A stretch of 56,230 bases of DNA from NCBI GenBank assembly GCA_028716525.1, contig JAQUPQ010000026.1:1-56230 (forward strand), given 5' to 3'. A program made the position numbers and the translations under genes. The stretch's first letter is position 1, and the number at the start of each line of letters is the position of its first letter. Under the pieces are notes generated by a model. It worked only from the letters and a program-made list of their open reading frames with translations, did no database searches and was not told the origin of the DNA. This document shows positions 15,069 through 56,230 of the stretch, piece after piece. Source of the DNA: Terriglobia bacterium. GTDB lineage: Bacteria; Acidobacteriota; Terriglobia; JAIQFV01.

Positions 15069-15097
15069 GAAACCGGTTGGAAGGTCCATTCACAGGG

Positions 15098-15618
15098 CTT
15101 GATTCCCTCTTGCTAAGCAATTGATCGATGCAAAACCCCGTTCACGGGGTTTTGTTATCTCAGCCCGCCGGTTTACCGGCGGGAGGCGAGATGCATCTCT
15201 TTTGTAGGGAAGCCGGGGTTTGAGAGCCTCGTTCACGGGGATTGATTCCCCTTTGCCCAGCAAGTGATCGATTCGAAACCCCGTTCACGGGGTTTTGTTA
15301 TCTCAGCCCGCCGGTTTACCGGCGGGAGGTGAGATGCATCTCTTTTGCAGGGAAGCCGGGGTTTGAGAGCCTCGTTCACGGGGATTGATTCCCCTTTGCC
15401 CAGCAAGTGATCGATTCGAAACCCCGTTCACGGGGGTTTGTTATCTCAGCCCGCCGGTTCACCGGCGGGAGGTGAGATGCATCTCTTTTGCAGGGAAGCC
15501 GGGGTTTGAGAGCCTCGTTCACGGGGATTGATTCCCCTTTGCCCAGCAAGTGATCGATTCGAAACCCCGTTCACGGGGGTTTGTTATCTCAGCCCGCCGG
15601 TTTACCGGCGGGAGGAGA
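15098..15618. repeat. 143-bp tandem repeat with two hairpins per unit
   Basis: Units begin at 15133, 15276, 15419 and 15562 (taking AAACCCCG as the start), giving an exact 143-bp period; the last unit is partial, and a diverged unit end precedes the first. Each unit has a hairpin AAACCCCGTTCACGGGGTTT and, 11 bases later, CCCGCCGGTTTACCGGCGGG, then GAGGTGAGATGCAT and GTTCACGGGGATTGATTCCCC. Differences between units fall in loops or at stem ends (TTTA to TTCA; an extra G). There is no gene inside. The first hairpin could also terminate the efflux operon. Confidence 0.9.
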
Positions 15619-15638
15619 GATCCATATCAGCCTCGGTT

Positions 15639-30011: not shown

Positions 30012-30073
30012 TAGGGACAGGCACCGTAATCATTGGTATTTCAAAATTGAGGAGCGAGAGGTGCCTGTCCCTA
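30012..30073. repeat. 14-bp inverted repeat TAGGGACAGGCACC
   Basis: A perfect inverted repeat (30012-30025 and 30060-30073) with a 34-base spacer, between the FN3 lipoprotein and hslU. Its GGGACAGGCACC core resembles the GGGACTGACACC / GGTGTCTGTCCC pair of the terminal 80-bp repeat. No T-run. Confidence 0.65.
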
Positions 30074-40860: not shown

Positions 40861-41196
40861 CAGCCTCTTTTGGAAATTCCAAAATCCAAGCACCAAAATC
40901 CAAATAAATTCCAATTACCAAAGTTCAAATGAAAACAAGGTAAAAGACAATTCCAAAAACAGGTTCTGTTTGACTTTTGGAGCTTGGATTTTATTTGGAA
41001 TTTGGCTTTTGGAATTTGGATTTTGCTTCACTTCATGTGCATCGTGCAGCGGGACTCGAGGTGTCACTATATTCTGTCCTGCTCTGTAGATAAGAAGCAA
41101 TTCGAAGAACAGGTTCTGTTTGACTTTTGGAGCTTGGATTTTATTTGGAATTTGGCTTTTGGAATTTGGATTTTGCTTCACTTCATGTGCATCGTG
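40861..41196. repeat. TTTGGAATTTGG-type repeats with a perfect 89-bp direct duplication
   Basis: The stretch 40958-41046 is repeated exactly at 41108-41196, 150 bases apart. The repeat is A/T-rich and built of TTTGGAATTTGG words. An inverted relative (CCAAAATCCAAGCACCAAAATCC) lies at about 40878-40915. The right copy runs into the 3' end of the radical SAM gene and supplies its last codons. Confidence 0.85.
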
Positions 41197-54141: not shown

Positions 54142-54310
54142 TTGAGATTTTGCGAATGCGTGAATTGGGAATACTGAGATTTTAGGAATTGGGGCAGCGG
54201 CCAACCCGAATTGAAAAATGTAAATCATTTCTCAACGAATTGGCTTTGAGATTGCGCGATTGCGCGAATGCGTGAATTGGGAATACTGAGATTTTAGGAT
54301 TCGAGGCAGC
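54142..54310. repeat. Duplicated GCGAATGCGTGAATTGGGAA segment
   Basis: The stretch beginning TGCGAATGCG at 54151 recurs at about 54263, with TACTGAGATTTTAGGA and GGCAGC. The two copies are about 112 bases apart. The sequences between 54103 and 54516 show no gene; the rest is unremarkable. Confidence 0.6.
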
Positions 54311-54516
54311 ACCCCGCCGGAATCCAAGAATATGGATTTCTTCTCGTCACTTGTCACTAACCACTTTTCACTGTTCTCGGCCACTATTCACTCTTTTCTG
54401 CCCTTGTGATTTGACCTCTCTCCACCAAGACCGTATGATTTATAAACGCTCCAACTAACGTTTGTTGGTAACGCGCGGAACGCGCCTCACGGGAAGTAGT
54501 GCTTCCAGGAGTGAGT

Positions 54517-55827
54517 GTGATAATTCTCATTGTCATCCTTTTACTCGTTTTATTCCTGCTGTCGATGCTTTCCTCCTCCGCAGAGACGGCCCTGTTTGCG
54601 GCGAATCGGTATGACATAAAGGCGCTGGCCGGGAAGGGGAGCCGTCGCGCCAAGCTTGTCCTGGCAATCCTCAAGCACCCCGAGCGCGTCTTGGCAGCTC
54701 TACTTTTTCTCAACACCTTGGCTAATGTGTCGATGGCGGCCATCGTTACGACTCTGGTGGCGGACTGGGTATCCGAATTGCACCGCAATCTGGCGTTGAT
54801 CCTTACGACCGTGGTTCTGACGATTGTGTTGCTGATCTTTGCAGAATTTGTTCCCAAGACTTTTGCGGCGCGTCATGCCAACCGTCTGGCATTGGCATTG
54901 ATCCAACCTCTGCGGGTGGCTATGGCGGTTTCGCTGCCGGTCATTCGGATTGGGGAACTGCTCGGACGGAGGCTCTTGGGCAGCAAAGCTGAGGAGTCGG
55001 CCAGGGAGGCGATTGCCTCGGAGGTGGTGCTGCAATCGTTGATCGATGAATCCGCTGCCACAGCCGGTGTCGAGCGGCACCAGATGTTGCGCGGTGTTTT
55101 GGCCCTGTCAGATTTGGCCGTCAAGGCGGTGATTATTCCGCGTTCGCAGATCACAGCCGTCCCGCTCGAGGCCACTCCGGAGGAGATTTTGGAGACCATT
55201 CGAACCACCGGCTACAGCCGCATTCCTGTGTACCGCGGTGACCTCGACCATATTGCCGGCATTCTTCATTCCAAGGATGTGCTGCCTCGCCTCATGCAGC
55301 AGATGGGTCAAACCGGCCCGGTGAAGGAAGGACTCAAGCTACAGACCATCATGCGCAAGCCGTTGTTCGTCCCCGACAGCGCCAAGGTGGATCAAACCTT
55401 GAAGTACATGCAGAAGAACCATATTCATATGGCTGTCGTGATTGACGAGCACGGCGGCGTGGAGGGCCTCGCCACGCTGGAAGATTTGCTCGAACAAATC
55501 GTGGGCGAGATTCAAGATGAGCACGACTTTGAATTGGATTCCATTCGTCGGCTGGCCAATGGAACGGTGTTGGTGGATGCCGACGTTTCGATCCGTGAAA
55601 TTAACAAACGCTTGAAATGGGAATTGCCCGAATCGAACCACTACTCCACCTTGGGAGGCTTCTTGATGGCCCATACGGGGCGACTCCTTCAGGAGGGTGA
55701 TCGGGTGCAGTATGAACACAGGCGCTTCACCATCAATGCCACGGAAGGCCGTCGATTGGTCAAGATTTTGGTGGAACCGAATATAAGGACTGACACCTTA
55801 CGTTTGACGACCGAGGGTGATCGATGA
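54517..55827 (+). CDS. CNNM/CorC-type (HlyC-like) membrane transport protein
   Basis: A 436-residue protein. The GTG at 54517 has AGGAG five bases before it; further in-frame GTGs lie at 54499 and 54511. N-terminal CNNM (DUF21) domain with four TM helices (VILLLVLFLLSMLSSSAETALFA, LFLNTLANVSMAAIVTTL, NLALILTTVVLTIVLLIFAEFVPKTF, LIQPLRVAMAVSLPVI), two CBS domains (IIPRSQITAVPLE through HIHMAVVIDEHGGVEGLATLEDLLEQIVGEI), and a CorC/HlyC transporter-associated domain after it. Members handle Mg or Co. The last 13 or so codons are repeat-derived (see the terminal tandem repeat), and the TGA overlaps an ATG as ATGA. Confidence 0.88.
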   Translation: MIILIVILLLVLFLLSMLSSSAETALFAANRYDIKALAGKGSRRAKLVLAILKHPERVLAALLFLNTLANVSMAAIVTTLVADWVSELHRNLALILTTVVLTIVLLIFAEFVPKTFAARHANRLALALIQPLRVAMAVSLPVIRIGELLGRRLLGSKAEESAREAIASEVVLQSLIDESAATAGVERHQMLRGVLALSDLAVKAVIIPRSQITAVPLEATPEEILETIRTTGYSRIPVYRGDLDHIAGILHSKDVLPRLMQQMGQTGPVKEGLKLQTIMRKPLFVPDSAKVDQTLKYMQKNHIHMAVVIDEHGGVEGLATLEDLLEQIVGEIQDEHDFELDSIRRLANGTVLVDADVSIREINKRLKWELPESNHYSTLGGFLMAHTGRLLQEGDRVQYEHRRFTINATEGRRLVKILVEPNIRTDTLRLTTEGDR

Positions 55828-56230
55828 CCCGGGTGTCTGTCCCTTCTCTGGGTTTTCCGAATATAGGGACTGACACCTTACGTTTAACGACCGAGGGTGA
55901 TCGATGACCCGGGTGTCTGTCCCCTCTCTGTGTCTTCCGAATGTAGGGACTGACACCTTACGTTTAACGACCGAGGGTGACCTATGACCCAGGTGTCTGT
56001 CCCCTCTCTGTGTCTTCCGAATATAGGGACTGACACCTTACATTTTAACGACCGAGGGTGACCTATGACCCAGGTGTCTGTCCCTTCTCTGGGTTTTCCG
56101 AATATAGGGACTGACACCTTACGTTTAACGACCGAGGGTGACCGATGACCCGGGTGTCTGTCCCCTCTCTGGGTTTTCCGAATGTAGGGACTGACACCTT
56201 ACGTTTAACGACCGAGGGTGATCGATGACC
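55777..56230 (+). repeat. 80-bp tandem repeat with chained ATGA micro-ORFs
   Basis: Unit starts (ATATAGGGAC or close) are at 55781, 55861, 55941, 56021, 56102 and 56182, an 80-bp period with one 81-bp unit, and the array runs off the window. Each unit has an inverted pair GGGACTGACACC / GGTGTCTGTCCC, and GAGGGTGA before an ATG. Micro-ORFs 55824-55907, 55904-55987, 56065-56148 and 56145-56228 are 27 codons long and each ends with TGA overlapping the next ATG. The unit at 55984 has one extra T and stops at 56061. The first unit supplies the end of the CNNM gene. Confidence 0.9.

Follow-up and report, generated by a model that had tools for sequence, protein, structure and literature searches.

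The right-hand end of the window analysed here (a whole stretch of 56,230 nucleotides from a Terriglobia bacterium) is occupied by a tandem repeat in which short open reading frames (ORFs) follow one another through shared stop and start codons. This arrangement raises the question of whether ribosomes that finish the upstream CNNM gene are handed along a series of coupled peptides, as a sequence-only reading of this DNA had proposed, or whether the chain is a by-product of the repeat, as the same reading had allowed. Tandem Repeats Finder confirmed the reported 80-bp repeat at 55777-56230 with a period of 80, 5.7 copies and 94% matches, a repetition far beyond chance; one of its units is 81 bp long, and its right side is the end of the contig, where the window ends too. 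The whole 80-bp unit occurred at one locus only in this genome, and a search of the genome's other contigs found no second contig carrying the array. Other repeats in the window were a tandem array at 15089-15625 (3.8 copies at a period of 143 bp), each unit of which contains inverted repeats rich in G+C (CCCCGTTCACGGGG, CCCGCCGGTTTACCGGCGGG), and A/T-rich short tandem repeats (TTTGGAATTTGGAT and similar) at 40881-41175.

The chain itself was much as it had been described. ATGs are found in the array at 55824, 55904, 55984, 56065 and 56145, spaced by 80 or 81 bp, each with GAGGGTGA upstream, as had been stated, and with GAGG ahead of it, a good Shine-Dalgarno-like motif that would make translation possible and that we count against the explanation preferred below. 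Micro-ORFs 1 (55824-55907), 2 (55904-55987) and 4 (56065-56148), all on the plus strand, encode 27 amino acids and stop at an ATGA that includes the start codon of the following frame, and micro-ORF 5 (56145-56228, plus strand, 27 amino acids) also stops at an ATGA, in agreement with the earlier count of four such frames out of five. Micro-ORF 3 (55984-56061, plus strand, 25 amino acids) falls outside the chain, stopping early and out of register because its unit contains one extra base. The CNNM gene was also correctly said to end in this manner, its stop codon lying in the first ATGA at 55827.

These observations bear first on the possibility that the micro-ORFs are under selection as a series of translationally coupled peptides, which ribosomes would enter on finishing CNNM. 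The ATGA at four of the five junctions with GAGGGTGA upstream, and the run of CNNM into the first of them, would suit such a chain, and PMC6728339 describes the ATGA stop/start overlap as an arrangement for termination-reinitiation coupling between overlapping genes. However, the chain is broken at its third micro-ORF, the minus strand of the array is likewise open (for up to 77 codons), and six of the eight differences between units are non-synonymous and two silent.

The length of the unit also weighs against selection. With a unit of 3n+2 bp, a single ATGA always puts the TGA that recurs one period later in frame with the ATG, and a chain then requires no more than that one ATGA and the absence of a further in-frame stop; the frame in the array happens to be open. 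A period of this kind therefore yields a chain from an ATGA in any otherwise open unit, and selection is unnecessary. We estimated the chance expectation from 20,000 dinucleotide shuffles of the 80-bp unit, scoring a chain on either strand, and observed an ATGA chain in 7.1% of the shuffled units and an NTGA chain (GTG and TTG starts counted) in 53%, with none at a period of 79 or 81. Given an 80-bp repeat, the ATGA chain is not beyond chance expectation.

The sequence-only reading had overlooked the inverted arms within the units, the dispersed family to which these belong, and the family's link to a transposase. The element consists of two inverted 12-bp arms (GGGACAGACACC / GGTGTCTGTCCC) and a core of 33-36 nt, and every unit of the array contains GGGACTGACACC followed, 34-35 nt on, by GGTGTCTGTCCC. 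Element 1 (55786-55843; elements and array are listed without strand) has the left arm AGGACTGACACC, with one extra mismatch, ahead of its core and right arm; element 2 (55866-55923) has a 34-nt core between its arms and is followed by element 3 (55946-56003), by element 4 (56026-56084), in which an additional core base breaks the ORF chain, by element 5 (56107-56164), and by element 6 (56187-56230), which is truncated at the contig end. A degenerate pattern search of the genome found 39 arm pairs with spans of 57-60 bp, of which four belong to the array and 35 are dispersed, while a reversed control pattern found 0 pairs in the same genome. One dispersed single copy lies within the window, at 30014-30071, where the arms GGGACAGGCACC / GGTGCCTGTCCC enclose an unrelated 34-nt core.

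As the search by its design holds the arms constant, we judged arm conservation from single-arm counts, which gave 96 arms in the genome, 78 of them paired with an intact partner and 18 alone. Conservation is much stronger in the arms than in the cores, which show little sequence conservation and only weak positional preferences. The arms fold onto each other as a hairpin; the arm GGGACAGACACC is not self-complementary and has no GT[AG]G foot, and although the base preceding the arm is G in 80% of copies and the next one out is T in 60%, these do not form a GTAG consensus. Dispersed cores contained no stable inner hairpin, symmetric inner pairing being at control level and the mean fold z being -0.4. 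The element had no match in Rfam, and no arm pairs were found in viral contigs. At three loci (L092, L091 and L129), additional single arms lie about 28-41 bp from dispersed copies; these are half-elements partially duplicated in tandem, and they suggest that the elements commonly duplicate in place.

The two genomes of the same family that were searched contained 48 and 32 copies. Of 297 genomes sampled across the phylum, just four others gave matches, and the forms found there were largely palindromic and either shorter or longer. Tandem arrays of this element family also occur in the sister genome G001, where the copies are spaced by 80 bp or by 124/125 bp and have different cores. These results bear on a second alternative, in which the array is a plain minisatellite grown from a duplicated chance stretch of 80 bp, with no mobile-element origin. 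Near-identical tandem units, and a whole unit confined to one locus of this genome, are what such a history would leave; however, each unit holds the arm pair of the dispersed family at the family's 58-bp span, and the arrays in G001 belong to this family as well. The dispersed copies disfavour the minisatellite, and we consider it very improbable.

The dispersed copies also allowed the ORF chain to be judged outside the array. The array's ATG sits in the variable core, and the other copies drop it: only one of the 35 dispersed elements has an ATG at the array's offset. When 80-bp slices centred on these 35 elements were hypothetically repeated in tandem, an ATGA chain resulted for six of them and an NTGA chain for 18. 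One pair of copies in G001, spaced by 125 bp and unrelated in its core, gives a TTGA chain, and there is no chain in the 124-bp spaced neighbours or in the 80-bp array of another core, so that the ATGA chain is missing from the tandem arrays of the same family in the sister genome. We found no conservation of the overlap beyond the repeat arithmetic. The unkept ATG of the dispersed copies and the missing ATGA chain in G001 are the outcome that the sequence-only reading had named as refuting its proposal. The geometry on which serial coupling had been proposed is thus real, but the unkept ATG and the arithmetic of the chain disfavour a working device, and the evidence favours the accompanying doubt that the coupling is a by-product. 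Judged from the sequences compared here, the micro-ORF chain is very likely a consequence of repeat length rather than a translation device; we infer that functional coupling is absent, and there is hardly any likelihood in our view that the peptides form a selected, coupled series. A striking ORF pattern can come from repeat length alone, and whether the period accounts for such a chain should be checked before any function is proposed.

The position of the array relative to CNNM suggests how it may have arisen. This CNNM / CorC-HlyC family gene (54499-55827, plus strand; 442 amino acids from the first GTG; Pfam CNNM, CBS and CorC_HlyC) takes its last ~18 codons and its stop from repeat sequence. 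Its Pfam domains extend to residue 427 of the 442, and its orthologues in G001 and in the genome G002 have a different tail beyond EGRRLVK and no element after the gene, which indicates that the array joined past the last conserved domain and supplied a new tail and stop. An element copy would have reached the 3' end of CNNM by insertion or by recombination, and that copy may then have been multiplied locally by slippage or unequal recombination. Compared with plasmids, the CNNM DNA gave 60-80% matches only, to other genes of the family, and a search for CNNM in named genomes gave distant hits only. The 11-mer GAGGGTGATCG of the unit is also present at 55693-55703, where CNNM is still coding; its copy in the first unit follows 120 bp downstream, and EGDR is encoded in both. 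This recurrence is probably due to chance. A sequence for a TonB-dependent, Oar-like protein lies upstream and may point to Acidobacteriota.

The sites occupied by the dispersed copies suggested a further role. Copies are mostly intergenic (33 of 34 lie outside any ORF of at least 200 amino acids), the gene gaps that hold them are convergent in 11 cases versus divergent in one, and many copies sit 5-20 bp past a stop codon. Their left flanks are rich in A (0.51-0.74 at -7 to -4) and their right flanks in T (0.49-0.63 at +3 to +7), and the outer flanks pair with each other above the level of permuted flanks (0/5000 permutations). The elements might on these grounds be mainly 3'-end structures, which might for example terminate transcription in both directions or stabilise mRNA where genes converge; the array would hold several of them in a row after CNNM. 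However, intrinsic terminators have shorter loops than one of 33-36 nt, A/T tracts are missing from the flanks of the array itself, a terminator scan of the array found none, and placement past stop codons would equally fit passive tolerance of insertions. This reading is compatible with the mobile-element explanation and does not exclude it; that 3'-end function is the elements' main character is possible, but we regard it as doubtful.

The genome contains ten Y1_Tnp genes, one of which adjoins these elements: this gene lies at 54196-54813 on the minus strand of contig C6. Two element copies are found no more than 0.2 kb from its 5' end, and on its 3' side a degraded copy overlaps the gene end and a full copy lies 0.2 kb beyond. 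The degraded copy (locus L165, 1470-1527) encodes the C-terminus of the transposase, a replacement of the tail like that in CNNM. In G001, which represents a sister genus, a Y1_Tnp gene (contig C30, 42625-43206) encodes a protein 63% identical to that of C6 and has three element copies on each side. The Y1_Tnp domain (PF01797) was found with E values of 1.5e-13 and 4.3e-10, and the motifs NHIH/NHVH and YVERNP/YIERNP are visible.

Three more distant genomes of the class contain relatives of the C6 protein, at 46-49% identity, near inverted-arm elements that start with GGGGACAGACG or GGGACGGAGC (loci L170, L173 and L188). In one genome, which belongs to another family (locus L185, 1317-2263), arms with the exact family sequence, GGGACAGACACC / GGTGTCTGTCCC, stand ~0.95 kb apart and bracket a Y1 transposase gene; each arm there has further complementary sequence, and the arrangement resembles an autonomous form of the element. 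G002 has the elements, and no close relative of the C6 transposase was found there at the threshold used. With one of ten Y1 genes linked and no close relative in G002, it is mainly two genomes that support a cognate link. The adjacency in these two genomes suggests that a RAYT-type Y1/HUH transposase probably spreads the elements in trans. We consider it highly probable, taking these results together, that the array consists of REPIN-like elements clustered in tandem, themselves probably mobilised by a transposase, and that its ORF chain is the arithmetic of its period.

A comparison with known systems supported this placement with some differences. The ATGA overlaps of PMC6728339 connect real genes; the array shares with them the stop/start overlap and the Shine-Dalgarno-like motif upstream, whereas its frames are repeat-derived, variable among copies and explained by the period. 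In a REPIN, two REPs in inverted orientation enclose a spacer that is short and highly diverse (PMC8049555) and varies little in length (PMC8049555, PMC3116915), and REPINs form ordered clusters of tandem, near-identical REPINs that include the flanks (Bertels and Rainey 2011, PMC3116915). The present elements resemble them in their inverted, conserved, hairpin-forming arms (39 exact arm pairs), in their diverse cores of near-constant length (33-36 nt), in being extragenic and present in tens of copies, in their tandem clusters of near-identical units including flanks, and in the copies beside a Y1 transposase gene on C6 and on C30 of G001, a feature not seen in G002.

In contrast to REPINs, the arms are 12 bp long (~19 with the A/T-rich ends) and not palindromic alone, and the GT[AG]G foot that classical REPs carry is missing from them, so that they do not qualify as REP arms; we therefore call the elements REPIN-like, meaning a variant and not a proven member of the class. 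Element copies on both sides of the transposase gene make up the REPtron layout (PMC6006769). The Y motif of the C6 transposase, YVERNP, resembles, by motif alone, the YIELNP of TnpA subclass 2.1, for which no REPs were found (PMC6006769). A fuller account, in which a REPIN-like class with non-palindromic arms and no GTAG foot is moved by a RAYT subclass reported to be without REPs and also provides bidirectional 3'-end signals, while the chain could incidentally lead ribosomes into the array after CNNM, seems to us unlikely as a whole. A literature search on the arm sequences returned no relevant paper, the titles found being unrelated eukaryote papers, and the family would extend the REPIN/RAYT theme to an arm type of this kind; CNNM offers a case in which a gene has had its C-terminal tail rewritten by such a REPIN-like element.
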